Origin: Lunularia cruciata
Lineage: Eukaryota > Streptophyta > Marchantiopsida > Lunulariales > Lunulariaceae
Assembly: GCA_948567375.1 (NCBI GenBank)
Contig: OX419756.1
Coordinates: forward strand, 24,318,333-24,382,332
Direction of reading: 5' to 3'
Length of the DNA stretch: 64,000 nt
Below the pieces are notes generated by a model that was given only the letters and a program-made list of their open reading frames with translations, had not been told where the DNA came from and searched no databases. Below are positions 28,605 to 53,992 of the stretch, piece by piece. A program made the position numbers and the translations under genes. Every line of letters begins with the position of its first letter. Within the stretch, counting starts at the first letter, position 1.

Positions 28605-28848
28605 AAAGTGTCACGCCATTTGTAGTTCCGCATCTAGATGCTCGGACACTGGAGTTCTAGTGATGGTAGTTAGAGTTATTCTAGCTGTTTCTCAGGGACT
28701 ACTTTCCGACGGTTAGATTTTGTGTTTGGGTTACTGACTTCATGGTGGGGCCCACCGTCACTTTGCACCGTTTGCACCGTCGAGTGTGCCGTCAGTGGGA
28801 CCATTAGGGTTTCAGGGCTAGCTCGAGTCCAGGGGTATAGTTTCGAAG

Positions 28849-28868
28849 GTGAGCTCCAGAGAGCTCAC
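28849..28868 (+). promoter_or_regulatory. Conserved hairpin in D-family LTR
   Basis: GTGAGCTC-CAGA-GAGCTCAC is a perfect 8-bp inverted repeat with a 4-base loop. It is kept in the 3' copy (about 53672-53691) and in D' (with a TCTG loop in reverse). It could be a palindromic protein-binding site or an RNA hairpin if transcribed. Confidence 0.4.
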
Positions 28869-29647
28869 TTCTTTGATGTTGAGCCTTCGAGTTCTTGGCT
28901 ATGCTGGACAGAGGCCGGCGAGCGTCTCTTGGATTCTCTATGCTTGAGTGGGTGTGGCTTGATTGTAATCAGTGCCCAGTTGTTGGCAGTTAATAGAGTG
29001 ACAGATCAAGTACTGATCTGAGTTGAGTTGAGTTGAGAGTGTTAAGCAATCTGATTACATCAGAGAAGTGAAGTCAGGGGGAAATCGGGTGCAAGAACGT
29101 TGAGTGTTGGTGGTATCTCCAAGCTCGGTGGATCGTGGTAGCTTGATTCAGGTTCTGGGTTTCCCTAGTGTGCAGAAGCTCATGTAGTTGATGCAAATTT
29201 GGCAGTTAGGCGGACGGTGTGCGGAAGCATTGGCCAAATTTTGAGCAAAGAAGGAGCAATTTTTGAGCAGTGTTGTGATTTTGAGCTCAGGAGGTGAAGG
29301 CAGGACCAATTTGCTGTGAGTTGGGCTCAGAAAGTGAAATTGAAGGTGGAGTTGGAAAGCTCTTCTCATGAAATTGTGATTTGGAAAAACCCGTTTTGTC
29401 AATTTGGCTCGAGTGGAAAGTTAGCGGGGGATTTGGCGGACATCCATCTTTAGGGTTTACATCAGATTTTACGTCAGATTTACATCAGATTTTGGGCCGA
29501 GGCTTCGAGGCATAGGGCTGTGGGCTATGAGAGGCTACAAAGGCCTAGAAGGGCCAGAAGGGCTAGCAAGCCAGCTTGCTAGCGTGAGGCTAGCTAGTTT
29601 AGTGTAGATCTTGGTCATTGGTTGGCAAAATCTGCCTTTCTTGCTAG

Positions 29648-29738
29648 ATTGTGCGCAACAGGGTTTGACCCCTAGATCTCTTGTTCCTAGATTGGTGCCC
29701 TAGCCAACTGGTCCACCCTCACTTGTTGTCATAGTGAC
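29648..29738 (-). other. tRNA-like block, antisense in the D LTR
   Basis: The minus strand reads GTGAGGGTGGACCAGTTGGC (an A-box-like TGGACCAGTTGG) and, about 50 bases on, GGGTCAAACCC (B-box-like), ending in TGCGCAC. The same block is on the + strand of D' near 1165-1250. The arms are imperfect, so this is a tRNA-derived relic or an RNA polymerase III-type promoter, not a functional tRNA gene. Confidence 0.4.
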
Positions 29739-29856
29739 TGTGCCACTGTTATCTATACACATGTAGCTTTGGCTAGGAGAGGTAGTTTGATCCCATTCTT
29801 GGTGATCCTCGTAGCTTAGGACTTAGATACGAACTACTCTTATGTCAAATGCCAAA

Positions 29857-29869
29857 TGGTGGCAGAGTC
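29857..29869 (+). other. Primer binding site of D
   Basis: TGGTGGCAGAGTC two bases after the LTR end, identical to that of D' and similar to the initiator-tRNA-Met site TGGTATCAGAGC. Confidence 0.6.
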
Positions 29870-30325
29870 AGTCCCGTGTTATGTTATGAGATGGAGGGTT
29901 TTTGTTTAGATTTCTTGTGATTGGATCCCCTCCATTCTCTGCTTCCTGTTTGTGCACCACGTTTGTGTGAGGTGCCCTGACTTTTGAGCGTTGGTGCTCT
30001 GGTGTGCTCTCGGTGGTGAGGCTGGAGTGATGACCAGTCAGACTACCTTTGTTTCTCTTCGGTGAGGCAGGAAGTGATGACCTACAGACCATGAGAGTGC
30101 ATGTTAGGATGGCAGGTTACAGGTTGCCCTTCCCCTAGTGTAGTTATCTCGGTAGAGTTACATTAGTGGGTGGTGTTTAGTTGGTGTTGGCACGTGGTGG
30201 TGTTGGCACTTGGTGGGGTACTTGCGGTTGCAACTTACGGTTGCAGTTGGTGGTTCGGGTTTGCTGTTGCAGTTACGTGGTCACGACGGAGTTCTTTGGA
30301 GATTCTAGAGTTAGCCCTGCAGTAC
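29870..30325 (+). other. Leader of D up to the A1 insertion
   Basis: 456 bp between the PBS and A1, matching D' in reverse (about 610-1028). It contains GT/TG-rich coding-like sequence (GGTACTTGCGGTTGCA) corresponding to the MGYLRLQ start proposed in D'. No convincing gene of its own is seen. Confidence 0.5.
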
Positions 30326-31006
30326 TGTAACACCCATTTGTGCATGTGTGTGGTATTGTGATATTTAGCTTGGTATTACAAGTACTTAAGAGATATTATT
30401 TATATAGAGAGATAAAGGATGGTTCTATATTAGTCATGGTTAGCTAAAGTTAGTCATAGCTAAGATAGATGGGACCTTACTTTAGAGGATGTAGAAAAGA
30501 TGAGCACCACTATTTTGGATTTTAGTGTGTTGACTTGGTGTTATTCCTAGGTGTTTGGCTTTGGGGAAAGAGTTGAGAACTCTTGGGCCCGCAAGCCTTT
30601 TTGTTTTGGATTCTTCTTTAGTCCAAGGATAGCCCATGTGAAGGAATCCTTGCTTTAGTGGTTGGGTCAAGATAAGGGGAATATGCCCATGTGAATGGAT
30701 ATTCCTTCCTACTTTTTGACTTTACTTGACTTTTAGTCTAGTAACTTGAGTTACTATGGTAATTAGTAACTTTGGTACGTAACTATTTCACAAGTATATA
30801 AACAAGGGGTGAGGAGGTACTCATCATCCTTTCATTTGCAACTATCTCTCTCTCATTGAGTTCTCTAGTGAGCAATGTCTTGAGTCTTGGAGTGTTAGCC
30901 TTGGAGGAGTATGATGGAGTTGGGGTTCCTTGCCTTCTTAGTCCATGGTGCGCTACCATAATAGCCATCAGAGGTTCATCCTGAGTGAGAGACAGGCCGG
31001 CTCACA
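30326..31006 (+). repeat. 5' LTR of A1
   Basis: 681 bp, TGTAACACCC to GGCTCACA. TATA box TATATAAA at 30795-30802. The same LTR appears eight times in this window counting A1, A2, F and partial matches in ORF fragments; the full-length ones are at 3031, 30326, 37459, 42705, 49825 and 62176. Confidence 0.95.
30795..30802 (+). promoter_or_regulatory. TATA box of A-family LTR
   Basis: TATATAAA in the context CAAGTATATAAACAAGG. It is conserved in the A1 3' LTR (37926-37933), both A2 LTRs (reverse, 42909-42916 and 50029-50036) and F (reverse, 3234-3241). Genomic transcripts should start about 30 bp downstream. Confidence 0.65.
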
Positions 31007-31010
31007 TTTT

Positions 31011-31027
31011 TGGTTCCGTTGCCGGGA
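31011..31027 (+). other. Primer binding site of A1
   Basis: TGGTTCCGTTGCCGGGA starts four bases after the LTR. It resembles the tRNA-Asp-type site TGGCGCCGTTGCCGGGGA used by Athila/Tat elements. The reverse equivalent in A2 is at 49804-49820. Confidence 0.65.
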
Positions 31028-31047
31028 CCTCTCTAGAAGGCAAGATA

Positions 31048-31218
31048 ATGTTCCGCGTCCAATTCTACATTAGGCAGAAGGAGGCTATGAGAGCTCACTT
31101 GGAGAGAACATTAGGAGAGGAGAGGGCTGAACTTATGTTAGAGAACCAAGATCCATTTGTATACCCTATAGTTCATTATGATGTCTTTGAGGTGATTTTG
31201 TACATCTTGTACACATGA
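31048..31218 (+). CDS. Small leader ORF of A1 (56 aa)
   Basis: ATG at 31048, 20 bases after the PBS, open for 56 codons (MFRVQFYIRQKEAMRAH... to VILYILYT). A2 keeps it at 49783-49613 with two amino-acid changes (EER to EEK, PIVHY to PVVHY). Conservation fits coding, though the copies are so young that little drift is expected. No known domain. It may be a short upstream frame or the remains of a longer gag N-terminus. Confidence 0.4.
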   Translation: MFRVQFYIRQKEAMRAHLERTLGEERAELMLENQDPFVYPIVHYDVFEVILYILYT

Positions 31219-31640
31219 GAGGAATTGGAGAGATTGTGTGAGGTGGATTGCAGATTTTGGGGATTAAGGTGATTTTGGGCAAAATCTCAAGTTTGAGATC
31301 TGGACTTGAGATTTCTACACATGATAGCTTGGGTTATCTTTCAGTTAGCACACTTGAAATTATTGAGAGAGCTTCTATGCGCACTGGGCTAGAAGTTTTG
31401 AAAGTTGATAGGGTAAAGTGCTCCCGCAACTGCATGCTCTTTGGAAAATTGTACAGAGTCTGCCATTTCTTCAATTTTCAGTTTATTGTCTTGAAAATTT
31501 CCAAGAGAATTTCCAAATTTCCAATTAGTTTATTGTATCCTACCTGCTGCCACAAAAATTAGGGAGAGATCGTTTTTGCGCAGGGCGTTATGAGTTTTTG
31601 AAGTGAGGGGGGTGGTTTTCAGACCAAATCTGAAATATGG
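31219..31640 (+). other. A1 leader with degenerate coding-like sequence
   Basis: A frame of about 100 codons (31248-31562; ISTHDSLGYLSVSTLEIIERA) is open here and mostly open in A2 (49593-49351). No domain is recognised. It is probably untranslated leader or a decayed ancestral ORF. Confidence 0.35.
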
Positions 31641-32353
31641 GTGCTAAATAGAAAGGTGTCTAGGCCAAATGGCTCGATGAAAAGATTTGAAATTTTGCAA
31701 GGGGGACGCCCTGGAGTTGTGATCAAGTGTGGAAAATTTCAGAGGACTGTGAATTATTGGTTGGGAGATTTGAGTGACATTGTGAGGAAGGGTCAATTCT
31801 GCAGAGTGGAGATCTCATGCATGAGAAGTTTGAGATCAACAAAAAGCATGTTTGAGTGTTTAGATTCATCTTGGGGAACATGGAGTGTCATCAAGAGTGG
31901 AAATTGAGATTATGCAAGGTTCCCCAAGGGTTTGAGGTGATTGTAGGGGTGGATTTGAGGAAAAGAGAGTTTACAATAGAATTTGAAGAGAGTGTTAAGA
32001 GGATTCAAAAACCTACACCACTTGGAGGAAAGAGTGAGTCTAAGTGCTTTCTATGTGGAGAGAAGGGACATAAAGCAAGTTCATGTCCATTGACCTTTGA
32101 GAGCAAGAGATTGAGGGAAAGGAGAGGCTTACTTGACTTGGGTTTGCATGTTGGACCTTCTTCACCAAGATTGGGAGGGAGAAGATCTAAGACCAAGGAG
32201 TTGTGTGAGGTTTGTGGAGTTGAAGGACTTCCAAAAGGACATGAGTGTAGTGGAGTAAAAGCACTTTTGGAAACTTTGGTGAAGGATCTTGGAGAGAGTC
32301 TAAGTACAGCTACAAAAATACTACCACCTTCATCAGCTAGTTCTCAAGATTAG
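31641..32353 (+). CDS. A1 upstream ORFs: overlapping frames ending in a CCHC knuckle protein
   Basis: Two frames overlap. The first, 31641-31907, contains GRPGVVIKCGKFQRTVNYWL and CRVEISCMRSLRSTKSM. The second, 31856-32353 (165 codons), contains WKLRLCKVPQGFEVIVGVDL, the zinc knuckle CFLCGEKGHKASSC, a basic region and the pair CEVCGVEGLPKGHEC. A2 has both in the same arrangement (49126-48938 and 48989-48492), so the overlap is ancestral to both copies. The two may be one protein joined by frameshifting, or two proteins. The style recalls plant zinc-knuckle (DUF4283-like) proteins. It is distinct from the gag ORF downstream, which has its own knuckle. Confidence 0.6.
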
Positions 32354-32511
32354 TGATGGAAATAATCTTTCAACTTATGGATAAACTATCCATGAGAGTT
32401 AGATTAGTATGCACTCTAGGATTTGATGTTGCTATAGAAATCTTGGAGCAACCTGAACCTTTTGTGTTCCCTAGAGTGGATTATTCTCAGATGGTGTTAG
32501 TCATGTATATA

Positions 32512-32587
32512 CTCTATTAGTAATAGAGTGAGAGAAAAAAAAAGAGAAAAAAAAATTGAGAGAAAAGAAAGATAGTGAGGAGTTAAG
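32512..32587 (+). promoter_or_regulatory. Inverted repeat and purine-rich leader before A1 gag
   Basis: CTCTATTA-G-TAATAGAG (32512-32528) is a perfect inverted repeat. It is followed by about 55 bases of almost pure A/G ending at the gag ATG (32588). A2 keeps both (48258-48335, reverse). It may be a hairpin and A-rich leader that help ribosomes start at the second ORF, or a secondary polypurine primer; both are inference. Confidence 0.4.
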
Positions 32588-34588
32588 ATGGGGAAACTTC
32601 CGGTTTTCTTTGGCAAGGATGGAGAAGATGTGGAGGCCTTTGTGAGAGACTTCAAGAGAGCTTGCATAGGAAACAATGAGAGGAGGAAGAATGAGTGGGC
32701 CTCATTATTACCAGATTTCTTTGAGGATGCAGCACTTACATGGTATGAGTCAGAATACCAAAAGAGAGAGAGGAGAGAGGGGGAAGAGGAGTCTTGGGAG
32801 ACTTTGACTTCAGCACTCATTGAGAACTTTCTTCTTGATGAGATTTATGAGAGATTGATGAGTGAGGTTACATTTCTCAAGCAAGGAGATGGAGAGAAAG
32901 TGAGGGTCTATGTGGAAAGAGTGGAAAAGTTGGAGTCCAGATTTCGCATAGTGTTGAGGAAGGGTGGGGATGATGTGGAGACTACAATGATTGGCATAGG
33001 GGCCATGCTCACCAAGAATTTTGTGGGAGGATTAAGACCACAAATTAGAAGCAAGGTGAGATATGAGAAACCTTCTTCCAAGGTTGAAGCTATCAAGATT
33101 GCAATTTGTATGGAGGAGAGTTTGGAAGGGGATGAGAGTGATTTGGTGGTGAAGGAGGTTGTGCATCCTCGTCAAGGCTACAAGTATGGTGGAACTTCTG
33201 ATACTTTGGTGACAAGGGTTGCACCACAAGTAGTAGTTGCTCCAGTTCTTGCACCTCCACCAAAAGATCCACTCCAAACCATCACAGAACAACTTGCGGA
33301 TCTCAAGATCAATGTGGTGCAACTATGGGAGAAGAGAGAGGTGGATCAGAATGTAGGGAGAGGGCCTAGGAGTTATGGAAACTATCCATATAGAGGAGGC
33401 CAACCAGCCAACAATTTCAATGATAGAAATTGTTTTGGTTGTGGAGGAAGAGGCCATATCCAAAGGAATTGCCCAAATTCCACTTACCATGGAGGAAGGG
33501 GTTATGAGGGAGCCAATAGAGGGAAAGAGGGAGGTAGTGAAACCCAAGTGGCTCCTAATCCCAACAAAGGTAAGGGGATAGCATCCATAGATGTGGTTGA
33601 GAGCAAGTATGAGAAGGGAGAGTGCTCAAACTCCAAGGGTCTTAATTTGGAGCTTTTGGCACAAGAGAAGAAGAGAGCTCGTTTTGCAAAGGATGTTCAC
33701 TTTTCTCAAGGATTTACTTCAAGCAAGGTTACTCCTATGTCTACTAGGAGCACTCGCACCTCAACACCATCAACAACAAAGACTCCAAGGAAGAAGTTGG
33801 GGATGGAGGACTTCTTGATCTCAAAGCAACAATGGAACTTCAATGTGTTGGAGGATGTTGGTAGTCACAAGGCTAACATCACAGTGGGCCAATTAATTGC
33901 TTTGAACCCTACCTTGAGAAAGGAGCTTAGAGGTGGTTTGAGTTCTACAAGGAGCAAGAAGAAGAAGAAGGCAAAAGTTCCAATATCAATGGGGGTGGTG
34001 GATGCCAAGCCAGCACCATGGGAAGCTTGTGAATATGCCTCCAAGATTGATGTGAGAGTGAATGGTCACAACATCAAGGATGCATTGGTTGATGGAGGAT
34101 CAACAATGAATGCCATGTCAGAAAGGTTGATGAAGAAGTTGGGTATGATACCCTCAAGACCTTCAACATTTGTGGTGAGCATGGCAAACAAGCAACAAGT
34201 TCGACCAGTAGGGGTGATGGATAAGGTGGTAGTTTCAGTTATGGGAGTTCAAAATCTCATGACTTTCCAAGTCTTGAAGGATTCAAGCTATGACTTACTT
34301 CTTGGGAGGCCATGGTTGAGAGCAGCACGCACAATTGATCGATGGCACAAAGGGTACTTGAGGATTGGGCCATCAAACCATAGAGTCACTGTTCCTATGA
34401 CTAACACCACCAACACTTCACATTCAGATACACCATCTTCTGATTATTGGGAATCAGATTCTGAAGAAGGAGCTTCAGGTGTGGACACAAGCATGGAAGA
34501 GGAGACTTCCACGGAGGAGGATGAATCTGAATCTGATTCAGATGTGTATCTTTGTGTGCTTATTTTGCACCTAAGCCAGAGGTTTTGA
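32588..34588 (+). CDS. gag-pol: A1 gag and protease (666 codons)
   Basis: Residues 1-200 are a retrotransposon gag core (LPVFFGKDGEDVEAFVRDFK at the start, ALTWYESEYQ, FVGGLRPQIRSKVRYE). A zinc knuckle CFGCGGRGHIQRNC lies at residues 282-295. A Lys/Ser linker and the aspartic protease follow; its active site is DGGS at residue 502, in place of the usual DTG/DSG. LLLGRPWLRAA is the protease C-terminal motif. The end is acidic (TEEDESESDSD). The frame stops early through a 4-base loss near 34550 relative to A2; pol continues in another frame from 34552. ATG at 32588 is the same start as in A2. Confidence 0.85.
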   Translation: MGKLPVFFGKDGEDVEAFVRDFKRACIGNNERRKNEWASLLPDFFEDAALTWYESEYQKRERREGEEESWETLTSALIENFLLDEIYERLMSEVTFLKQGDGEKVRVYVERVEKLESRFRIVLRKGGDDVETTMIGIGAMLTKNFVGGLRPQIRSKVRYEKPSSKVEAIKIAICMEESLEGDESDLVVKEVVHPRQGYKYGGTSDTLVTRVAPQVVVAPVLAPPPKDPLQTITEQLADLKINVVQLWEKREVDQNVGRGPRSYGNYPYRGGQPANNFNDRNCFGCGGRGHIQRNCPNSTYHGGRGYEGANRGKEGGSETQVAPNPNKGKGIASIDVVESKYEKGECSNSKGLNLELLAQEKKRARFAKDVHFSQGFTSSKVTPMSTRSTRTSTPSTTKTPRKKLGMEDFLISKQQWNFNVLEDVGSHKANITVGQLIALNPTLRKELRGGLSSTRSKKKKKAKVPISMGVVDAKPAPWEACEYASKIDVRVNGHNIKDALVDGGSTMNAMSERLMKKLGMIPSRPSTFVVSMANKQQVRPVGVMDKVVVSVMGVQNLMTFQVLKDSSYDLLLGRPWLRAARTIDRWHKGYLRIGPSNHRVTVPMTNTTNTSHSDTPSSDYWESDSEEGASGVDTSMEEETSTEEDESESDSDVYLCVLILHLSQRF

Positions 34589-35703
34589 AGGACCCAGATA
34601 AATCACCATTGACACTTGAGGAGGTAGAGAGAAGGTTATCTACCCTCAAGTATGGCCCAAATGTTACCAAGGAGGAGAAGGTGAGATTTGAGGAGATTTT
34701 CCGCAAGTTCATCCATGTGTTTGCTTTTAGTTACAAGGATTTGAAGGAAGTCACCTTGGAGGAGCACAAGATAGAGGTGGAGTCACATGGAAGACCAATC
34801 CGCCAAAAGCAATGTCGCATTAGCCCACCAATATCTTTGGTTGTGAAGGAGGAGATTGATAAGCTCAAGGAGGCTGGATTTATCTTTGAGGTGGAGAATT
34901 CAAAATGGGTGTCTCCAATTGTCATTGTGAAGAAAAAGAATGGCAAGCTTCGGGTATGTGTGGATTACAAGAAGCTCAATGCTGTTACCAAGAAGGACTA
35001 CTACCCATTGCCATTCATTGATGAGATCTTGGAGGAGGTTGCAGGTCATGAGAGGTACAATTTTGGAGATGGTTATAGTGGATATAACCAAATCAAGATT
35101 GCACCAGAGCATCAACAACTCACCACATTCACCACACCTTGGGGAACTTACGCTTTCAAGGTCATGCCTTTTGGGCTTTGCAATGCTCCAGCCACATTCC
35201 AATGGTTCATGAACAAGGTATTTGAACCTTTCATTGGGAAATTTGTGAGAGATTTCATTGATGACTTTTGTGTCTATGGGAGCAAGGAGGAGCACTTTGA
35301 GCACCTAATCAAAGTCTTGCAACGCTTGGATGAGGCAAATGCATCACTCAACCCAGAGAAGTGCATTTTTGGATGTGAAGAAGGTCTACTTTTGGGGCAT
35401 ATCATCTCCAAGGATGGAATAGCAGTTGATCCTAAGAAGGTGAGGAAAATCTCAGACCTTCCATTCCCTTCAAGCTTGACAAAGTTATGCCAATTCTTGG
35501 GGATGGTTGGGTACTATAGGAGGTTCATCTTCTCATTTTCCAACAAGGCTTATGCATTGACCATCTACATGAAGAAGGGTGTAGATTACATGGTGATTTT
35601 GGAAGACAAGGAGGCTCTCAAAGCTTTTGAGGAGCTCAAGCAATCCCTTGTTGTAGCTCCAATTCTTGCTAAACCTGATTGGAGTAAACCTTTCATCCTC
35701 TAA
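34552..35703 (+). CDS. pol: A1 reverse transcriptase (383 codons, out of frame with gag)
   Basis: RT motifs in order: DYKKLNAVTKKDYYPLPF, FGDGYSGYNQI, VMPFGLCNAPATFQ, and the active site FIDDFCVYG (catalytic Asp pair at residues 237-238; the first position of the YxDD box is Phe), then GMVGYYRRF. The frame ends at TAA 35701 where A2 reads Tyr (ILYTDASN). It is separated from gag-protease by the 4-base deletion near 34550, so it would not be made as a fusion in this copy. Confidence 0.85.
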   Translation: MCAYFAPKPEVLKDPDKSPLTLEEVERRLSTLKYGPNVTKEEKVRFEEIFRKFIHVFAFSYKDLKEVTLEEHKIEVESHGRPIRQKQCRISPPISLVVKEEIDKLKEAGFIFEVENSKWVSPIVIVKKKNGKLRVCVDYKKLNAVTKKDYYPLPFIDEILEEVAGHERYNFGDGYSGYNQIKIAPEHQQLTTFTTPWGTYAFKVMPFGLCNAPATFQWFMNKVFEPFIGKFVRDFIDDFCVYGSKEEHFEHLIKVLQRLDEANASLNPEKCIFGCEEGLLLGHIISKDGIAVDPKKVRKISDLPFPSSLTKLCQFLGMVGYYRRFIFSFSNKAYALTIYMKKGVDYMVILEDKEALKAFEELKQSLVVAPILAKPDWSKPFIL

Positions 35704-37410
35704 ACTGATGCTTCTAATGTAGCTATAGGATGCACTCTTAGTCAATTAGACCAAGATGGGCATGATCATCCAATAGCTTATGCTAGTAGGCAGATGGTTT
35801 CAGCAGAGAAGAACTACTCTGTCACGGAGAGAGAAGGGTTGGCAGTGATCTTTGGTCTCAAGAAGTTTAGACACTACTTGATTGGAGGGAAAGCCACCAT
35901 TGTCATGGATCACAAGGCTTTGAAGTACATCTTCAACAAGCCTAATGTTGAAGGGATACTAGCAAGGTGGATGATACTCTTGTCTGAGTATGACTACACC
36001 ATTGAAGATAGGCCAGGAAAGAAACATGCAAATGCTGATTTATTATCTAGAGCCTATGATCATGATGGAGATGAGCCAGTGGATGATTCCTTGCCGGATG
36101 AGGAGCTCATGACAATCTCAGTCACTCAAGAGGTTCCAATGGAGTACAAGGAGATTGTGGATTTTGTGACAAAAGGTAACTATCCAGAAGGGATGCATGC
36201 TAGGGAGAGGAAGGCCCTTGCAGCAAGATCTAGACCTTACACAATGGTGGAGGATATTCTTTTTCACCAAGGAGCAGATGGTCTACTTCGAAGAGCAGTG
36301 GGTAAGGAAGAGTCTATCCTACTCATAAAGGAGTTTCATGAAGGTTTAGTATGTGGAGGACACTTTGCAAGAAAGGTGACTGCTTTCAAGATTCTAGATG
36401 CAGGTTACCATTGGAGAGGGATTTTCAAGGATTGTCTTGATTATTGCAAAACTTGTCATGTTTGTCAACCTTTTGCTAGAAAGTCTACATCCACTCCACC
36501 ACTTAGATCAATTCCATTGCTAGGACCTTTTGAGAAGTGGGGAATTGATTTTGTAGGACCTCTCAATAGAACCCCAAGGAACAATCGGTACATTGTGATA
36601 GTTACTGATTACCTTACCAAGTAGGTTGAGGCTACACCATTGAGGAACAAGAATGAAGATGAAGTGGGTAGATTTCTTTATGAACGCATTATCACTAGGT
36701 TTGGATGCCCTTTGGAGTTGGTTTCTGATAGAGGAGGAGAGTTTACAGGAAGCATTACTACAGCCATGCTATGACATTTCTCTATCACACATAGAGTAAC
36801 TACATCCTATAAGTCAAATTCCAATGGCTTGGCAGAGAGAACCAATCAGACCTTGTGCATGATGTTGGCCAAAGATGCAGAAATGGAGGAGGCTAAACAT
36901 CATTGGGACAAGAGGATTCATGCAGTTTTGTGAGAGTATAGGACAACCATGAAAACTTCCACTGGATATTCTCCATTTCAATTGGTGTATGGTATGGAGT
37001 CTACCTTACCTATTCACTTTGATCTTCCTACCTTCCAAAGCATTCATTGGAGATTGAAGAAAGCACAAGGAGGTGATGCAGAGAAGTCAAGGAAGGATCA
37101 ACTCATGGAGTTGGAAGAGGCAAGAGCAGTTGCTATGGTTCGAGTGGAGCAAGCCCAAAGGAAACAAAAGGAGAGCTATGATAAGAGGCAAGACAAGAAG
37201 AAGGTGGAGCCTTTCAAAGAAGGTGATTGGGTAATGTTGTTTGATTCCATTCGATTCAAGAGAGTGCAAAAGAAGTTTTTGCCTAAGTACTTTGGACCTT
37301 TCATAGTGGAGAAGGTGTGGGGCAATTACACCTATGATCTCAAGGAGTTGGGAGGAAGATACTTTGATAGGATTAACCATGATAAGTTGAAGATGTATCA
37401 TAGAAGGTAG
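35704..37410 (+). pseudogene. pol: A1 RNase H and integrase
   Basis: RNase H: YSVTEREGLAVIF and MDHKALKYIF, then RPGKKHANADLLSR. Integrase zinc region: FHEGLVCGGHF ... CKTCHVC. Core: WGIDFVGPL (Asp), LVSDRGGEFTGS (Asp), NGLAERTNQTLCM (Glu). C-terminal module: FKEGDWVMLFDSIRF. Stops at 36622 (TAG where A2 has Trp), about 36772 (TGA for Arg) and about 36931 (TGA for Trp) inactivate it. A2 has this stretch as one open 538-codon frame. Confidence 0.88.
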
Positions 37411-37458
37411 AGAGACCTTCACTTTGAGGACAAAGTGAAAACTTAGTCCGGGGGTAAA

Positions 37459-38137
37459 TGTAACACCCATTTGTGCATGTGTGTGGTATTGTGATATTTA
37501 GCTTGGTATTACAAGTACTTAAGAGATATTATTTATATAGAGATAAAGGATGGTTCTATATTAGTCATGGTTAGCTAAAGTTAGTCATAGCTAAGATAGA
37601 TGGGACCTTACTTTAGAGGAAGTAGAAAAGATGAGCACCACTATTTTGGATTTTAGTGTGTTGACTTGGTATTATTCCTAGGTGTTTGGCTTTGGGGAAA
37701 GAGTTGAGAACTCTTGGACCCGCAAGCCTTTTTGTTTTGGATTCTTCTTTAGTCCAAGGATAGCCCATGTGAAGGAATCCTTGCTTTAGTGGTTGGGTCA
37801 AGATAAGGGGAATATGCCCATGTGAATGGATATTCCTTTCTACTTTTTGACTTTACTTGACTTTTAGTCTAGTAACTTGAGTTACTACGGTAATTAGTAA
37901 CTTTGGTATGTAACTATTTCACAAGTATATAAACAAGGGGTGAGGAGGTACTCATCATCCTTTCATTTGCAACTATCTCTCTCTCATTGAGTTCTCTAGT
38001 GAGCAATGTCTTGAGTCTTGGAGTGTTAGCCTTGGAGGAGTATGATGGAGTTGGGGTTCCTTGCCTTCTTAGTCCATGGTGCGCTACCATAATAGCCATC
38101 AGAGGTTCATCTTGAGTGAGAGACAGGCCGGCTCACA
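37459..38137 (+). repeat. 3' LTR of A1
   Basis: 679 bp, preceded by the polypurine tract GGGGGTAAA (37450-37458) and followed by GTAC. Confidence 0.95.
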
Positions 38138-38194
38138 GTACGCAGTGGGTTTACTCGGAGTGGTGCTCGGTATCAGCTTGTATCTCAGGTCCCA

Positions 38195-39763
38195 GTGAGG
38201 GAGGAGATTGACTCTGAGTTGGAGTTCGACACAGGAGCTGATTCAGTTGAGAGTGCACTTGGTGTGTCCGCACCGTTATTGTGGGACATGGATGAGATTT
38301 ATGGGGCCTCCAAAGGCCTTAGGCGTTACTCTGGTACAATGGGTACCATTGAGTTGGATGACTTCATCCAGGAGTTTGATAGTTGGTGTGATCTGCAGCA
38401 AATGCGGAACCCGACCTTGTTCACACCCTTCATGGCATGGAAGGGGTTGTTTCAGCACTTGGAGGGTCCACCGATGGATGACTACCATGAGTTCAGGAGA
38501 GCTCTTTTGGAGGAGATTGAGTTATGGAGACAGTATTGGTCTCCACACTATGTCTCCATCACTTCAGGCTCGGTGGCCAAGAGTAGATCGGCTGTACCCA
38601 CGAGTTCTAGCTCGAGTAGTGTTAGTGGAGCTAGTGGAGGTGCACTAGCTGGAGATAGTGCTACTACGAGTGGAGATACCGCTGCAGGAGGTGGTGTGGT
38701 ACCGGGGTTTAACCCCATGGTTGAGTTCTTCCTATGTTTGAGGCAGAACTACCAAGGAGTGCGGACAGACAAGCTGAGGAGCTTGCAGGAGTTCCAACGG
38801 AAGGCTGGAAAGAGCCTACGCGAGGCATATAATCGCATGAGGCGGCTGATTAGTTTCACTCAGGGAGTTACTGAGGCCCAAGCAGTCCAGTTTTTGTATG
38901 GGATACTGGATAGGGAGTTGCGACGTAGAGTTCGTGATGCTACGTTGTTGTAGGGTACTTCGCCCACTTTGGCAGTAGTCTTTGGTTTGGCTGAGCGTAT
39001 TGAGCTCAACATGGTGGAGGAGAGAGTGGTGACAGCTGGATTTGGTAGGGAGACCTCATCCACAGTTGTGACTTCTTCTAGAGTTCAGCAGAGTGCACCA
39101 CGCCCAGTTGGTTTTCAAGGACAGGGTGGACAGCCCAGATCCTATGGAGCGAGTGGAAGGCCTAGTGGAGTTAGACCCTTACCCTCATTTTCGGGTCAGC
39201 AGTAGCCAATGAGTGGTGGTGTTGCTTGTTGGACTTGTGGTGGACCTCACCATAGGAGAGAGTGTACTCAGGGCAGCGGACCTGATACCTATGGTGCATC
39301 ACAGCCAACACAGAGGCAGTGTGAGCATTGCCACAGATTTGGTCACACTAGTGACCGGTGTTTTGACCTACACCCGGAGTTACGGAGTGGTAGGGCTGTT
39401 ATGGCAGGTAGTAGAGGTGGTGGTAGAGGATCTACACCTAGTAGGGGTGCAGCACCTGCCCTTACTTTTGACACAGCTATGGCTACTCGGATTGAGCAGT
39501 TGGAGCAGAGATTGGCTAGTATGGCTATTGCTTAGAGGAGATCAGATTCGGGTGCTGAGGCTTCCACCTCATATGCTGGTGATAGAGATGCTTTGGACTT
39601 CATGTGCGGAGCAGCACAGGTGGATGCATCTGCAGCAGTGACTAGGAGTGCAGTACGTGCTCCAGAGCCTAGAGGAGCATCAGTGGAGTTGGACCCACAG
39701 AGAGGAGAGGTTGGGAGACAAGTCAGACTTCCCCAGTCTTCCACGCTATTTGAGGCATTGTAG
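38195..39763 (+). pseudogene. gag: D gag with two zinc knuckles
   Basis: A single frame interrupted only by TAG codons at 38951, 39203, 39533 and 39761. The N-terminal part matches D' (ELDDFIQEFDSWCDLQ). A Ser/Gly-rich linker and a capsid-like core follow (VEFFLCLRQNYQGV, YNRMRRLISFTQGVTE, FLYGILDRELRRRVRDATLL). Two knuckles come next: CWTCGGPHHRREC and CEHCHRFGHTSDRC, then a Gly/Arg-rich stretch. 38195 is GTG here; D' has ATG at that codon. All four stops fit a lost glutamine. The 3' side joins protease in the same frame, so D probably had one gag-pol polyprotein. Confidence 0.82.
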
Positions 39764-40945
39764 ATGACATCCATGGTTCCTAGACGTCCCAGTGCAGGTG
39801 TGGTAGGTGGTGATGGAGTACCTGATGGAGTACCTGCTAGTCAGCCACCTACTATTACACAGACTGAGTCTAGCATGATGTTGGGGGCGGCTCAGCTGAT
39901 TATGCGGCATCCTTTATTTTCAGCCAGTGACATGTTTACATTGGGAGTTGACCCAGCCCCAGTGTTTCGGTTGGCAGCCACATTGTGTGAGAGTAGAGAT
40001 GGTGCAGTTCCTACTACTAGAGCAGAGGTGGTTGGTAGTGGAGCTGACTTGGTTGAGGAGCATGGGATCCGTTCAGCGACCAGTGGTTTATGGCAGGCAG
40101 CTAGACTGGAGGAGTTGCCAGCTAGACTGGCCTTTGAGAGAGCGCGGTTTACACCTGGTGTTGTCCTATTGGATAACCAGAGGGGGATCTTTTGTTTAAT
40201 GGGACCTTCAGGGAAGGTCTATACACCACAGAGAGTCTTGTTAGACTCTGGTGCGCAGCCCCTTATGTTGGGGAAGGCTGCAGTTGTTGGTCTGGAGTTA
40301 CAGAAGACCGATGTGGAGAGGTGTCCATTTCAGATCCAAACATCTCTAGGTGGTGGTTCGACACAGTACATCACACGTGGGGAGCTTGTTGTCCAGGTTC
40401 AGCCTGGTCATCCGACTGATAGCTCGGTGGTGAGAGCTCAGGCTATTGCAACGATAGCTGAGTCATATGATGTGCTAGTTGGGGGAGCAGTGTTATACCC
40501 TATGGGTTTCAGCATTGACTATTGGGAGGAGACAACATCTTATAGACCTGGTTGGCAGTCTGGTGAGGGACGGGTATGTCGCCTACCAATACGCTGCAGT
40601 AGTGGTAGTCTTGGCTCACTACAGTCCGGGACCATGGCAGCATCAGTTTTAGCTTTCAACGGTGCAGTTACTTGGCATGGTGACTTGTTGGAGGGGAACG
40701 CCCATGCAGAGGATACTCCAGTACCAGAGGAGATCACTTGGCTATGGAGAATGAGTGGGATTGTTCCATCCACCTTGGATGTTCCATTGTGGAGTTCAGA
40801 GGAGGCATTGCAGCAGCATGCAGATCAATTGGTACAGCAGGCTTGGAGTGGAGCCTTCGTACCATCAGGAGATGAGTGTGAGGATGAGCCTCCAGAGGCG
40901 ATTGCTTTGACACCTTTGGATACCACACTCATTGCTTGGCAATAT
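39764..40945 (+). pseudogene. pol: D aspartic protease region
   Basis: First 394 codons of the 492-codon frame 39764-41242. The protease active site is VLLDSGAQPLMLG (Asp at residue 161, codon 40244), followed by GLELQKTDVERCPFQIQT and a Gly-rich flap-like segment. ESYDVLVGGAVLYPMGFSID is the C-terminal protease motif. The stretch after residue 210 is a spacer of unknown fold leading to the methyltransferase. It is in frame with gag (upstream TAG 39761) and with the methyltransferase. Confidence 0.78.
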
Positions 40946-41920
40946 CCAGTAGAGGGGATATGTCTATTGGAGTTGTTTGGTGGGATCAGCACCGGACTAG
41001 CTGCGGTGTTACAGGCGGGTATCCGAGTACAGAGGTACTTGTATGTAGAGAGAGATGAGACTGCTAGGCGAGTCTCTCTACATCATGTGGCACACTTGGC
41101 CTATCGGTATCCGGAGTTATTACCGATGTCAGCAGTCAGAGGTTACCAGAAGGCCTTACCAGGAGACATTTCCTTACTGGGGGCGCATGACCTAGAGAGA
41201 CATGGGCCTATTTACTTGGTGATTTTTGGATGGCCATGTTAGGGACATACATGTGCGGGCCGTGGTTTGGGTCTTCAAGATCCTTGTTCTGGTGTGTTTT
41301 GGGAGATGTTACGGATACTACGACATCTCCAGGTTCATTAGTCTATTTCTCCAGCTTACCTTTTGGAGAACGTTCCATTGATGGGTGATTCTCGCACTAG
41401 AGTGGTGGCAAGTACACATCAGGTCCATTCATGGATGGGACCTGCTGTATTGTTAGATGCAGCCAGAGTGGGATCACGGGCTCATCGTCTTTGTCTTTGG
41501 TGGACGAACCTCTTACCCAGAGAGGTTCTACAGCGTAGTTATGATGGGATTAAGCGACTAGACCACATTCTTGTTGATGATATCTTAGATGCTGGACGTC
41601 AGTCTCAGACAGTGGTAGTGGCTGATAAGTCACCTATGGCAGTGGTGAACCTAGTTGGACAGCCTAGAGCTGCATTTCCCACACTCATGAGTTTCCCAGG
41701 CTCTCATGCTTTTCGAGAGAGAGGACCTGGACTTGTTTGGGACTCACAGTTATAGCAGTTGTTGGAGCCCAATGCTGATGAGAGAGAGCGGGCGATGGGT
41801 TTTTGCACCGGTATTACCGCTGTTCCAGCAGTGTCAGAGGCATCCAGGCGTCAGGTGTTAGGTCAGGCTATGGACCTGAACTGTTTGACCTGGATTGTGA
41901 GCCTTGGTTTGGCAGAGCAG
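40946..41920 (+). pseudogene. D C5-cytosine DNA methyltransferase domain
   Basis: All the main C5-MTase motifs occur in straight order. I: LLELFGGISTGLA (AdoMet binding, Phe at residue 405). II: YVERDETARR. III: PGDISLLG. IV: FGWPC then TAG then GHTCAGRG, where the stop replaces the Gln of PCQ right after the catalytic Cys (41237-41239). VI: LLENVPLMG (catalytic Glu at 41366). VIII: SRAHRLCLWWTNLL. A target-recognition stretch follows, then IX: ERERAMGFCTGIT and X: LGQAMDLNCLTWIV. The straight order excludes the permuted DRM type. Motifs I, VI and VIII resemble DNMT3. Stops are TAG at 41240, 41339 and 41753, so this copy is dead, but no motif is missing. It lies in frame between protease and RT, so it belonged to the polyprotein. 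Expected role: methylating cytosines, perhaps on the element's own cDNA. Confidence 0.9.
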
Positions 41921-42349
41921 CGTAGGATGCACTTGATAGGCATCACCACTCGGACATTTGTGAGCCATGTGCCTATCGAGACGATTCAGGCACATGCTGG
42001 GGGCGATGGACCGAGTGGACATGGTATTCTTGGGACACATCCAGTAGCTACTAGGGAGAGTGGTCTACTTGGAGTCCATCCAGGTGAGCGTGGGCTACTT
42101 GGATTACACCCTTGGTCCACATGGGATGCAGCCAGAGGACGTATGGAGCTTGCAGCCAGAGTGGAGGGAGTTTTTCACACAGAGGTTGGGACCTCTAGTG
42201 GTCGGGAGCATGACACCATTGCTCCCAAGGGCCCAGTGTAGCAGCCAGTCAATACGTCTTCCACTCCTACTACAATTACAGAGGATACTTGGGAGCCAGA
42301 TCTTGGACCCAAGCTTACTGGAGAGGAAAGACGGAGGGTTTGGAGGTTC
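41921..42349 (+). pseudogene. pol: D linker between methyltransferase and RT
   Basis: The same frame continues. It contains three spaced repeats of a G(I/L)LGxHP motif (about 42025-42113), then a Thr/Pro-rich stretch and a TAG at 42239. It ends in an Arg/Trp-rich segment (EERRRVWRFLRSH) that opens the RT domain. No known domain. Confidence 0.55.
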
Positions 42350-42704
42350 TTGAGGAGTCACACGAGTTGTTTTGCCTTCAGTATGAAGGATTTGGGTGCT
42401 CTGAAGGGACCTGGTATACGGATTGAGCTGACTAGTGACACACCAGTTTTCCGACGTCCTTATCAATATAGTGAGATGGAGAGGACATTGATTCAGAGCC
42501 GGAGTATTGACCTTTTTGAGGTTGGTTTGGTGGAGATTTCACATGGAGAGTATGCATCAGCGACAATGATGCCAGCCAAGAAGGATATGCATGGCAACTA
42601 TACAGATAGGCGGATGTGTGGAGATTACCGTCCTATCAACCGACAGACCAGGGCTGATCAGTATGCCATGCCTACACTGGAGGAGATTTTTGATGCGATT
42701 GGGC
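42350..42704 (+). pseudogene. pol: D RT N-terminal part, left of A2
   Basis: FAFSMKDLGALKGP, FRRPYQYSEMER, CGDYRPINRQTRADQYAMP and LEEIFDAIG are gypsy RT fingers motifs. A2 inserts after ...GATTGGGC. One GGGC copy removed, the frame runs on as GHAKVFSTLDLRAGYHQ at 50508. Confidence 0.88.
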
Positions 42705-43383
42705 TGTGAGCCGGCCTGTCTCTCACTCAGGATGAACCTCTGATGGCTATTATGGTAGCGCACCATGGACTAAGAAGGCAAGGAACCCCAACTCCATCAT
42801 ACTCCTCCAAGGCTAACACTCCAAGACTCAAGACATTGCTCACTAGAGAACTCAATGAGAGAGAGATAGTTGCAAATGAAAGGATGATGAGTACCTCCTC
42901 ACTCCTTGTTTATATACTTGTGAAATAGTTACGTACCAAAGTTACTAATTACTGTAATAACTCAAGTTACTAGACTAAAAGTCAAGTAAAGTCAAAAAGT
43001 AGAAAGGAATATCCATTCACATGGGCATATTCCCCTTATCTTGACCCAACCACTAAAGCAAGGATTCCTTCACATGGGCTATCCTTGGACTAAAGAAGAA
43101 TCCAAAACAAAAAGGCTTGCGGGCCCAAGAGTTCTCAACTCTTTCCCCAAAGCCAAACACCTAGGAATAATACCAAGTCAACACACTAAAATCCAAAATA
43201 GTGGTGCTCATCTTTTCTACTTCCTCTAAAGTAAGGTCCCATCTATCTTAGCTATGACTAACTTTAGCTAACCATGACTAATATAGAACCATCCTTTATC
43301 TCTATATAAATAATATCTCTTAAGTACTTGTAATACCAAGCTAAATATCACAATACCACACACATGCACAAATGGGTGTTACA
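42705..43383 (-). repeat. 3' LTR of A2
   Basis: 679 bp, TG...CA, with TATA box (reverse) at 42909-42916. The PPT is the reverse of the TTTACCCCC run following 43383. Confidence 0.95.
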
Positions 43384-50503: not shown

Positions 50504-50507
50504 GGGC

Positions 50508-51670
50508 ATGCAAAGGTCTTCAGTACTTTGGATCTTCGAGCGGGATATCATCAGTTGCCGATCAGGGAGGAAGATAAGTCCAAGATAGCATTTTGGGCTA
50601 TTGATCCTCACGGCAAGGATGTGTTATATCAGTGGAGGTTCTTACCATTTGGGTTGAAGAATGCTCCCGCTGAGTTCCAAAGGGTCATGGATAGGATCCT
50701 AGCTGGATTGGAGTTTGCTCGGTGCTATATTGATGACATTTTGGTTTATAGCACTACTGTGGAGGAGCATGAGAGACAATTGTTGGAGGTGTTTGAGAGG
50801 TTGAGATCTCATGGACTCAAATTACATCCGGGGAAGTGTAGGTTCTTCCATGAGCAGGTTGAGTATTTGGGTCACACTATCTACTCCGGAGGACTTGGTG
50901 TTCAGCAGACCAAGGTGGAGGCTATTGCACGTATTCCTTGGCCTACGGATGTGAGCAGAGTGCGAGCATTCCTTGGGTTGGTGAACTTCTATCGCCGCTA
51001 TGTTAGAGGATTTAGTGCCATTGCCAAGGCCTTGACGAAGCTGACCAAGCTTACACAGGAGTGGTGTTGGGGAGATGAGCAGGAGAGAGCTTTTGTAGAG
51101 CTCAAGGAGAGGTTGACATCTGCTCCTATTTTGAGGAGACCGATCAAGGGACGACCATTTCAGGTTCACACTGATTGGAGTATGTTGGGGCTTGGAGCGG
51201 TGCTCACCCAACATGATGATGAGGAGAAGGAGTTTGTGGTGGCCTATGCTAGTCGCTCCAACAATTCAGCAGAAGCAAAGTATAGTTCATATGAGGGAGA
51301 GTGCTTGGCCGCAGTTTGGGCAGTAGCACATTTCCGATATTACCTGTTTGGTAACCCCTTCACTCTCATCACTGATCATCAGCCGCTGAAGTGGTTGATG
51401 GAGTCCGACAAGCTTTCAGGGAAGCTTGCACGATGGGCTCTGATTTTATAGGAGTATGATTTCATGGTTGTTCACAGACCTGGAGTGGTGAACCGTGATG
51501 CAGATGGGTTGAGTAGAAACCCATGTCCCAGCCAGCAGGATCAGACCGGAGCACGTTGGCATGGTGAGATAGATGAGGAGATGGTGCCAAGTTGGCATGC
51601 ATCGACCTTTCTGTGTATATTTGCAGAGACTTTGGTGGTATCTCTCTCAGCGCATACAGGAGGAGTTATT
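50508..51670 (+). pseudogene. pol: D RT C-terminal part and RNase H
   Basis: STLDLRAGYHQLPI, FLPFGLKNAPAEFQRVMD, and a canonical YIDDILVYS active site, then FLGLVNFYRRYV. RNase H: VHTDWSMLGLGAVL, YEGECLAAVWAV, ITDHQPLKWLM, VNRDADGLSRNP. TAG at 51449 (Gln expected in LILQEYDF). The canonical YxDD and the GKDVLYQW-type insertion distinguish this family from A and E. Confidence 0.88.
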
Positions 51671-52857
51671 TAGGTCACAGATCCAGAGAGTGAAGATATT
51701 GGTACAGTTCAGCGAGACATTCATGATGATGTCTTAGTGATGGACTATCTTCGCACTGGTGTTGTGGGTGGCACAGTTGGGGCCAAGGAGAGAGACCGTG
51801 TTCTTCAGCGAGCCAGACGGTTCAGATTGGAGGGTAGACACCTTTTGCGTGTATGGGAGGATGGTAGAGTGCGAGTAGTACCACTTCTATCATAGAGACC
51901 ACAGTTGGTCCATCATGCTCATGAGGAGCTAGGACATTTTGGAGTAAAGCGTACATATAGCTTACTCCAGAGTCATTATTGGTGGCGCGGTATGCAGACC
52001 AAGGTACAGCAGTTTGTTGCCAGATGTGTGGTTTGTGATTGAGTTAGAGCATCATTCAATGCTCCTACGCCATGGTTACACCCATTACCTATCATGGGAT
52101 TGGGTTACCGTTGGAGTTTGGACTTTGCCGGACCTTTACCGCTGACTATGAGACATCATCGGTATGTTTTGGTGATGGTGGAGCACTTCTCCAAGTGGAT
52201 TGAGTTGGTGGCACTTCCTGACAAGTCTAGTGAAGGGACAGCTTACTCGTTCCTGGATCAAGTTCTTAGTCATTTTGGTGCACCAGCTGAGGTTTTGACT
52301 GATCAGGGTACAAAGTTCTTGGGAGAGTTTTAGGTCTTGTGTGACAAGGCTTGATTGATCATCGTACTACATCCCGAGATCACCTTGAGGTAGATGGCTT
52401 AGCAGAGAGAGTGGTTCAGACGGTGAAGAGAGGATTGCGAAAGTATGGTTTGCAGAGAGGCCACTTGGGAGATTGGGATCTCCAGTTACCTTGGTTGGCC
52501 ATGGGCTATCGGTTTGGCCGGCAAGCCTCCTTAGCATCCTTCTCTCCATACTTTCTACTCTATGGACGAGATCCAGATTTACCTGCAGCCATTTGTTGAG
52601 ATGCTACTGTAGTTTTGGACTTGGATGACCCCGATGTATGGATGAGCGCATGTTCTCAACGGGCAGAGATCTTTCGAAGAGTGATGCCGATGGCTTTTGA
52701 GAACTTGGCAATTGCTCAGCATAGAGATACTTTATGCTATGCTACCATTCGAGGAGGAGGTTATAGACCCTCGATTTGTTGATTTCATCCAGGCGACTAT
52801 GTATATCTACAGCAGACAGCACCGACAACACTTGATGTTTCTACAGGCCGCACTATC
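51671..52857 (+). pseudogene. pol: D integrase and tail
   Basis: Zinc region: QLVHHAHEELGHFGVKRT with ARCVVCD (HHCC). Core: WSLDFAGPLPL (Asp), VLTDQGTKFLGEF (Asp), DGLAERVVQTVKRGL (Glu). A GPY/F-like module follows: FHPGDYVYLQQTAPTTLD. Stops: TAG 51671, 51893 and 52331; TGA 52040, 52597 and near 52783, each at an expected Gln or Arg. One T is lost near 52351, shifting the frame by one. The tail leads directly into the PHD finger. Confidence 0.83.
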
Positions 52858-53157
52858 TTGACAGTGCGCGAGGTTTTGCCATCAAGAGTCCTTGTGTTAG
52901 AAGGACGTGATGGTGTTGTTTGGAAGGATCATGTGCAGAATTGTGCACCATGCCACCTTCCAAACATTGATGGTACTATGGACCCAAGCTTGGCACTTGT
53001 ACGTGCAGGCTTGAGGTGTATGTTATGTGGCTCTTCTGGTGGAGCTGTTACTATGTTAGTGTGTGATAGCTGTTCGAGAGGATGGCATATGGCATGTATG
53101 ACTCCTCCCCTCACGGTGGTTCCTCAAGGACAGTGGTTATGTCCTAGATATACTTGA
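52858..53157 (+). pseudogene. D C-terminal module with PHD finger
   Basis: After VREVLPSRVLVLEGRDG and the block NCAPCHLPN comes a PHD-type zinc finger: CMLC, 11 residues, CDSC, four residues, HMAC, then QGQWLCP. That is Cys4-His-Cys with the last pair reading CPRY, so seven of the eight zinc ligands remain (the eighth TGT would be TAT). PHD fingers read histone tails, often H3K4, so it probably guided integration, as chromodomains do in chromoviruses. The NCAPCHLPN block plus PHD is familiar from green-algal gypsy elements as far as I recall. Confidence 0.82.
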
Positions 53158-53325
53158 CCTATAGCTAGTTCATTCATTATATGGTATAGATTGCAGACAG
53201 CCGACTAACGATGGGGCTCCATAGCACCCGGCCTCATGATCTTTGCCCATTAGAGGGTATACCATATACTTAGAGTAGATGGCTATTTGGAGTTAGAGGG
53301 ACCTAACCGCCAGCTAGGGGGGCGA
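53158..53325 (+). other. D 3' noncoding stretch with polypurine tract
   Basis: A short decayed coding tail is followed by AGGGGGGCGA (53316-53325), the best PPT candidate. It precedes TTGTGGCAC of the 106-bp repeat, not the LTR start at 53434. Confidence 0.5.
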
Positions 53326-53431
53326 TTGTGGCACTTTAGAGTCTATGTATGACTTATGTGTGAGTTGTGCTTTTATAGTGTATGATGTTGACTGCGATGT
53401 ATGTTGTGTATCGATGTATATACGCACGACA
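53326..53431 (+). repeat. 106-bp direct repeat, copy 1
   Basis: TTGTGGCACTTTAGAG to ACGCACGACA. Nearly identical (about three differences) to 53883-53988. It lies between the PPT and the LTR fragment. The unit itself starts TGTGG and ends CGACA. Confidence 0.9.
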
Positions 53432-53433
53432 GC

Positions 53434-53882
53434 TATCACGCCATTTGTAGTTCCGCATCTAGATGCTCGGACACTGGAGTTCTAGTAATGGTAGTTAGAA
53501 GTATTCTAGCAGTTTCTCAGGGACTACTTTCCGACGGTTAGATTTTGTGTTTGGGGTACTGACTTCATGGTGGGGCCCACCGTCACTTTGCACCGTTTGC
53601 ACCGTCAAGTGTGCCGTCAGCGGGACCGTTAGGGTTTCAAGGCTAGCTCGAGTCTAGGGGTATAGTTTCGAAGGTGAGCTCCAGAGAGCTCACTTCTTTG
53701 ATGTTGAGCCTTCGAGTTCTTGGCTATGGTGGACAGAGGCCGGCGAGCGTCACCTGGATTCTCTATGCTTGAGTGGGTGTGGCTTGACTGTAATCAGTGC
53801 CCAATTGTTGGCAGTTTATAGAGTGACAGATCAATTACTGATCTGAGTTGAGTTGAGTTGAGAGTGTTAAGCAATCTGATTA
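53434..53882 (+). repeat. Truncated 3' LTR of D
   Basis: 449 bp matching the first part of the 5' LTR (28609-29056) at about 96%, beginning TATCACGCC. It stops after GCAATCTGATTA, losing about 800 bp of the LTR including U5. Confidence 0.88.
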
Positions 53883-53988
53883 TTGTGGCACTTTAGAGTC
53901 TATGTATGACTTATGTGTGAGTTGTGCTTTTATAGTGTATGATGTTGACAGTGATGTATGTTGTGTAGCGATGTATATACGCACGACA
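53883..53988 (+). repeat. 106-bp direct repeat, copy 2 (right end of D)
   Basis: Second copy of 53326-53431. It ends ...GCACGACA directly against E2 sequence (AGAGGGTAACC). The D left end TGTC and this right end GACA form an inverted pair. Confidence 0.88.
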
Positions 53989-53992
53989 AGAG

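Follow-up and report, generated by a model that had tools for sequence, protein, structure and literature searches.

A predicted DNMT3-type DNA methyltransferase inside a multicopy Ty3/gypsy element of Lunularia cruciata

We analysed a 64,000-nucleotide stretch of the Lunularia cruciata genome (contig OX419756.1, positions 24,318,333 to 24,382,332 of the forward strand), called the window below. It carries a straight-order C5 DNA methyltransferase at 40928-41980 on the plus strand, between the protease and the reverse transcriptase (RT) of a Ty3/gypsy element whose copy in the window is dead. From the sequence, we read this as a dead copy of a multicopy element with a first open reading frame (ORF 1) for gag, protease and methyltransferase and a second (ORF 2) for RT, RNase H, integrase and a PHD finger behind a leaky-type TAG stop; the enzyme would mark the element's own cDNA. 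We give this reading a probability of about one half. Cytosine methylation is a main route by which plants silence retrotransposons, and an element-borne enzyme of the de novo type with its catalytic residues kept challenges the picture of the host as writer and the element as victim. Two features are listed first:

40928..41980, plus strand: predicted DNMT3-type C5 DNA methyltransferase, with three premature stops in the window copy; identity via genomic copy L006
42239..42241, plus strand: TAG stop followed by CAGCCA (a UAG-CARYYA context), between the methyltransferase and RT reading frames; found in 5/5 copies

The initial annotation, made from the letters of the window, had placed a straight-order C5 methyltransferase in one frame between an aspartic protease (DSG at 40244) and RT. 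Translation of the frame 39764-42709 bears this out: it carries the protease DSG at 40244, then the methyltransferase motifs, then the start of RT. The motifs, picked and numbered by eye, run from LLELFGG through GWPC, LLENVP and RVGSRAHR to PNADERERAMGF and GQAMDLN, and the catalytic residues are preserved. Stops interrupt the frame at 41240, 41339, 41753, 42239 and 42707, and Pfam returned no family at E <= 0.1, and no methyltransferase, for its four broken pieces in the window. The identity of the window domain was carried over from genomic copy L006, in which the domain is open over 623 aa. That copy matches PF00145 at 1.5e-8 and, among PDB sequences, DNMT3A at 1.1e-10; Pfam found no domain besides the methyltransferase in the 623-aa frame. 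The window copy and the L006 domain are 96.8% identical over 1053 bp with no indels, and this alignment sets the domain limits at 40928-41980. The location first proposed (40946-41920) was right, and its limits slightly too narrow. RT does lie in the frame, as had been claimed (from 42350), but only in part, since another gypsy element cuts it at 42704 and it resumes at 50505.

The closest solved relatives of the domain, by sequence and by predicted fold, are DNMT3A and DNMT3B. The domain shares motif order, fold and best PDB matches with their catalytic domain; it differs in sitting within a retroelement protein and in having only 19-27% identity across the aligned fold. No plant DRM or CMT chain appears among the 50 rows of the VIA-align structure list, which excludes nothing. 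Sequence and modelled fold together suggest that, among C5 methyltransferases, the domain is nearest to the DNMT3 type; the trees described below include no animal DNMT3. A DRM-like rearranged enzyme is ruled out, because the motif order is straight here and rearranged (VI-X before I-IV) in the host DRM. Sequence, fold and trees thus agree with the earlier view of a DNMT3-like, non-rearranged enzyme unlike plant DRM.

A profile search of the 566-Mb assembly gave 2161 PF00145 candidates, of which 123 were scored and the first eight read. Four of the eight are element copies (L005-L008), and in all four the domain stands where it does in the window copy, after the protease and before RT; with the window copy they make up the five copies referred to below. 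Further genomic copies with the domain, as the initial annotation had called for, thus exist. Most scored loci (114/123) start at profile position 44-50, like the four element copies, and many lie in long open frames, so by these sequences methyltransferase-carrying elements look numerous in the genome. The four copies were found by a search for the domain and therefore cannot show what share of copies is without it. The other four loci are host genes: two straight-order Dnmt3-like genes (L001, L004), a DRM (L002) and a CMT-like exon (L003). Pfam backs the identity of L001 and L002; L003 and L004 were named by eye. The host Dnmt3 is 49% identical to that of Sphagnum and 52% to that of Diphasiastrum, over half of the query.

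The TAG at 42239 is followed by CAGCCA at the boundary between methyltransferase and RT in 5/5 copies read, with an open RT frame behind it and the same frame on both sides. It is probably not damage, because all five copies share it. They also share ancestry, so the five observations of the TAG are not independent. The UAG-CARYYA context promotes readthrough, especially in plant viruses (PMC4132726). By our own arithmetic, with equal bases, a six-base CARYYA match arises by chance about once in 512. The Calypogeia protein P0002 ends 64 residues past the enzyme domain and lacks RT, which fits a stop near that place. The initial annotation had spoken of one polyprotein; the shared frame stands, but the TAG in the five copies parts gag, protease and methyltransferase from RT, RNase H, integrase and PHD finger. 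If readthrough occurs, the enzyme would be a Gag-side product in excess over RT. It is also possible, though rather unlikely in our judgement, that the TAG is an ordinary stop and that re-initiation or a shorter RNA yields RT as a separate product. Proteins of relatives often stop before RT or start shortly before it, and P0325 and P0248 have methyltransferase and RT in one predicted protein with no stop between them; the common frame on both sides of the TAG and the improbability of the six-base match argue against separate translation.

A protein search with the domain scored 8000 candidates and listed 107 relatives at E <= 1e-3. The best named match for the element's enzyme is from Calypogeia fissa (72%); others are from Marchantia polymorpha (many), Sphagnum troendelagicum, S. 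jensenii, Klebsormidium nitens and Monoraphidium neglectum, along with many metagenome proteins; the rows at the foot of the list probably represent ordinary enzymes of bacteria. An RT-based search gave 1078 relatives, the best 120 of which add Closterium, Volvox, Haematococcus and Riccia. Taken together, relatives are present in Calypogeia, Marchantia, Sphagnum, Closterium and Klebsormidium and, with the domain at another place in pol, in chlorophytes. We ran hidden Markov models built here on 344 proteins and tallied the 224 that came from the domain and RT searches. In 21 the methyltransferase precedes RT (type I, the layout of the window), and in 30 it follows RNase H or directly precedes integrase (type II); the rest comprise 86 with RT and no methyltransferase in reach, 84 with methyltransferase alone and 3 others. 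None of the 224 has a methyltransferase at both places. A PHD finger lies behind the integrase in both types, and P0248 and P0294 hold all the domains in one protein. An annotated Marchantia gene model, P0057 (Mp_7g09570), joins a piece of the element's methyltransferase with the element's PHD finger; the model could represent either a broken copy of the element or its domestication as a gene.

We built an RT/RNase H tree of 117 rows by a quick method with Shimodaira-Hasegawa-like approximate likelihood ratio support, leaving out rows with short RT and using P0253 as outgroup. One clade of 29 rows (support 100) contains every one of the 18 type II rows, and the sister clade of 82 (91) contains every one of the 16 rows of type I. 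The two pol layouts follow the RT tree in these sequences. The methyltransferase tree has 58 rows, 40 from retroelements and 18 others (plant Dnmt3, host DRM, bacterial, phage); its sampling leans to relatives of the query, with animal, dinoflagellate and giant-virus enzymes absent. All 40 retroelement rows lie on one side of a branch supported at 100/99, apart from those 18 others. Type I rows form one group (97/93) and type II rows group weakly (51/4); in an earlier tree an 11-row type II set was nested inside type I. With this weak type II support and that earlier nesting, the move inside pol may have gone in either direction. A scan of viral contigs turned up 35 loci whose best segments are 26-47% identical; four of them were used as outgroup rows.

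Approximately unbiased (AU) tests rejected a grouping of plant Dnmt3 with Klebsormidium-type rows (p 5e-5) and with all type I rows (p 1e-7), both groups having been named after the tree was seen. By the first result, the idea that the Klebsormidium elements took up plant Dnmt3 on their own is rejected. We also reject descent from the Dnmt3 or DRM of the host genome, both of which stand apart from the retroelement clade in the trees. The broken state of the window copy would suit a chance passenger, with a single gypsy copy having picked up a methyltransferase from the host or from a bacterium in one event. This is nevertheless so improbable that we reject it: all five copies and several plant lineages have the domain at that one position, its catalytic residues are kept, and the trees hold it apart from both host enzymes, Dnmt3 and DRM. 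Nor did we see any boundary that would mark the domain as a separate insertion, a possibility the initial annotation had raised against itself.

Shared place and trees support the methyltransferase as an old component of the element clade, neither a late insert nor a recent capture, with some clade members lacking it. The domain is thus part of a gypsy element, as the initial annotation held, and its capture would be old. We tentatively propose that one ancient DNMT3-type capture founded, or early joined, a green-lineage clade of PHD-bearing gypsy elements and later changed place in pol; we hold this to be somewhat less likely than not. In members such as the Lunularia element, the Gag-level enzyme would mark the DNA in the particle and work alongside a DDE integrase that opens joined-end DNA at an internal junction, and with a PHD finger to read the target chromatin the element would be a chromatin writer and reader at once. 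The alternative, that types I and II each made their own capture of a related methyltransferase, with an unsampled virus or a lost host gene as donor, is the less probable history in our estimation, without being far-fetched. It would explain the clean split in position between the two RT clades and why both contain rows without the domain, and the long stem of the retroelement clade, with no known donor, also fits it. Against it stand the single branch (100/99) that holds all 40 retroelement enzymes and the RT-RNase H-integrase-PHD backbone common to both types. PMC5890265 describes independent acquisition of the domain in the K. nitens lineage; one retroelement methyltransferase clade argues against this, if P0092 and P0325 are the elements of that lineage. 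A single old origin, if true, would replace the published independent capture and make the enzyme's purpose testable.

How the enzyme might serve the element can be put as a sequence of steps. With the TAG read through at a low rate, Gag-level amounts of the enzyme would be produced and would enter the particle, where the enzyme would methylate newly made double-stranded element DNA before integration. Under this proposal, a new copy would enter chromatin already marked. At the insertion site, the PHD finger that the integrase carries would recognise histone H3.

Several observations weigh against this overall reading. Among the five copies, which are young and mostly decayed (silent divergence, Ks, 0.04-0.14), the ratio of replacement to silent substitution (Ka/Ks) is 0.27-0.74 over 10 pairs and does not reach the values below 0.2 given for the published elements in PMC5890265. 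The 106 private changes comprise 56 replacement changes, 39 silent changes and 11 stops, as in decay; 82 of the 106 are C-to-T or G-to-A, and the 18 changes shared between copies comprise 10 silent and 8 replacement changes. Pooled over the five copies, private C-to-T and G-to-A changes per site are 0.29 in CG, 0.25 in CHG and 0.095 in CHH. Such a pattern would follow from plant-type methylation of silent copies and deamination, with no CG-only signature. Observed/expected CpG is 0.39-0.63 in the element versus 0.13 in the younger nested element 1, a difference that runs opposite to the one heavy CG self-methylation might produce. The full terminal structure is seen in one copy and its 5' part in two, and the readthrough context comes from five related copies. 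The Klebsormidium enzyme showed no activity in a yeast test that PMC5890265 itself calls inconclusive. Three proteins of the type II clade (P0314, P0322, P0329) span RNase H to integrase without a methyltransferase, so loss or original absence does occur. Absence from other copies, which the initial annotation had named as a refutation, is thus seen in some relatives in the clade; for Lunularia itself, four of the five copies came from the domain search and bear little on it. P0316 from Klebsormidium has no methyltransferase in the 291 residues before its RT. No methyltransferase is seen in 80 of the 114 ingroup rows of the RT tree; in 73 of them the protein starts <= 210 residues ahead of RT, and these may have the domain in a separate frame upstream.

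Two other roles for the enzyme compete with marking of element cDNA. It could act on host promoters or rival retrotransposons, altering their silencing, or restrain the element's own later expression and so spare the host. We consider this unlikely. A benefit from slowed retrotransposition is considered as a possibility in PMC5890265, and a Gag-level enzyme, if the TAG context is a guide, would be abundant; the Klebsormidium methylome, described there as land-plant-like, speaks against it. Less probable again, in our assessment, is that the enzyme shields element DNA from cytosine deaminases or foreign-DNA sensors, or counters DNA viruses, instead of setting silencing. Such roles are proposed in PMC5890265 and PMC6338049. 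The latter ties the antiviral idea to absence from land plants, and the Calypogeia, Marchantia and Sphagnum proteins contradict that premise.

The precedents in dinoflagellates and charophytes that the initial annotation named do exist. PMC5890265, published in 2018, describes an element of this kind, KnitGypsy-Dnmt3, in Klebsormidium nitens. Like the Lunularia element it is Ty3/gypsy with a non-rearranged Dnmt3-type enzyme in the polyprotein, and the methyltransferases form a homologous clade. It also combines DIRS-like repeats with gypsy domains: the paper describes the DIRS arrangement for Symbiodinium, and its Fig. 4 legend gives the K. nitens element the same one. The Lunularia element differs in its leaky-type TAG between enzyme and RT, where K. 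nitens P0325 has both in one predicted protein. The words PHD and Marchantia are absent from the main text of PMC5890265. SymbioDIRS-Dnmt3 and SymbioLINE-Dnmt of Symbiodinium, from the same source, are also retroelements with a C5 methyltransferase in the coding region, but they are tyrosine-recombinase or long interspersed (LINE) elements, whereas ours has gypsy RT and an rve integrase. The host Dnmt3 (L001) and DRM (L002) are C5 methyltransferases too, and Dnmt3 likewise has straight order; both differ in lying outside the retroelement clade, and DRM in being rearranged. Chromodomain gypsy elements (chromoviruses) carry a chromatin-reader domain at the integrase end, where the present element has a PHD finger in place of the chromodomain.

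The 2019 paper PMC6338049 states that land plants, such as tracheophytes, have no transposons that encode DNA methylases; elements in liverworts and Sphagnum contradict this. The 2025 paper PMC12344493 reports such elements in streptophytes and dinoflagellates and names them LTR (long terminal repeat) Copia and DIRS. For the K. nitens element, these names differ from the Gypsy of the 2018 source. No paper on bryophyte elements of this kind, on the PHD finger, on the second layout or on the TAG-CARYYA stop was found by title or start of abstract, with subscription journals mostly uncovered; the name KnitGypsy occurred in one of the papers covered. Within that coverage, what is new here is presence in land plants, a single retroelement methyltransferase clade, two pol layouts, the PHD finger and the TAG-CAGCCA stop.

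The element spans 28609-53988 in the window, its repeats and insertions having been mapped by self-comparison. Its order is A1, leader, gag, protease, methyltransferase, TAG, RT, RNase H, integrase, PHD finger, purine tract, B1, GC, A2, B2. Besides the two features above, we place:

28605..28608, plus strand: left 4-bp target-site copy, one mismatch to the right copy
28609..29057, plus strand: terminal repeat A1, begins TG; 96.2% identity over 447 bp to 53436-53882
29058..30325, plus strand: leader, 5' part of the element; colinear with the minus-strand second copy (29499-30325 with 1389-597)
30326..38137, plus strand: nested gypsy element 1, a later insertion foreign to the host element; terminal repeats 30326-31006 and 37459-38137, 98.97% identical
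38138..39763, plus strand: gag region, same frame as protease and methyltransferase, 4 stops; CCHC knuckle at 39320
40124..40600, plus strand: aspartic protease with its DSG at 40244; approximate limits, set by eye
42242..42704, plus strand: reverse transcriptase, first part; phmmer 1.5e-101 to RT of copy L005
42705..50504, minus strand: nested gypsy element 2, a later insertion foreign to the host element; terminal repeats 99.85% identical
50505..52700, plus strand: remainder of RT, then RNase H and integrase; interrupted by stops and one frame shift, approximate limits
53017..53154, plus strand: PHD finger behind the integrase, PF00628 at 8.7e-11; final zinc-ligand Cys changed to Tyr in the window copy
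53317..53325, plus strand: purine-rich tract adjoining B1, read off the sequence
53326..53431, plus strand: terminal repeat B1, ends CA; 97.2% identity to B2 over 107 bp
53434..53882, plus strand: terminal repeat A2; GC between B1 and A2
53883..53988, plus strand: terminal repeat B2, ends CA, from self-comparison
53989..53992, plus strand: right 4-bp target-site copy, one mismatch to the left copy

The gypsy-type order of gag, protease, RT, RNase H and integrase is present in the window in pieces split by the insertions, and relatives have RT, RNase H and integrase in the same order. The gag region matches Retrotrans_gag at 0.006 (17.2 bits, below the Pfam cut-off of 24.1). For the protease, the relative P0017 has PF13650 upstream of its methyltransferase. 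The RT of copy L005 matches RVT_1 at 3.6e-21, and Pfam on the open pieces of 50505-52700 gave RVT_1 (2.2e-30), RT_RNaseH (5.3e-35), Integrase_H2C2 (9.6e-18) and rve (3.7e-11). The matches of the PHD finger include CHD4 (6.4e-14) and PHF12 (5.9e-13), among others.

The termini are not two like full LTRs; A1 lies at the left end and B1-GC-A2-B2 at the right. This DIRS-like arrangement, A-coding-B-A-B, is whole in one copy and present in its 5' part in a second. In place of the tyrosine recombinase that defines DIRS elements, the window and the relatives have an rve and H2C2 integrase. We therefore classify the element as gypsy on account of its pol and treat the termini as atypical, following the usage of PMC5890265 for KnitGypsy. 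A gypsy pol with split, DIRS-like termini raises a question about replication, and the A-...-B-A-B order suggests a joined-end DNA form that the integrase would open at the B-GC-A junction. A1 and A2 are 96.2% identical versus 98.97% and 99.85% for the nested elements' own repeats, with a Kimura two-parameter distance of 0.037 for A and B pooled. After A1 lies what we take, from comparison with a plant sequence only, to be a primer-binding-like stretch.

A related sequence without the insertion, on the minus strand at 11.5-13.2 kb, is about 82-86% identical and aligns with both element flanks around a 4-bp stretch, which is two bases off the left target copy and one base off the right. Given these mismatches among the 4-bp copies, a target duplication is likely, not certain. 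A second, partial element copy (repeat A, leader, gag start) on the minus strand at 2406-1 runs past the window start, with A directly before the leader. Nested elements 1 (plus strand) and 2 (minus strand) are two nearly identical young gypsy elements that lie in opposite orientation inside one older element, their arms 98-99% complementary.
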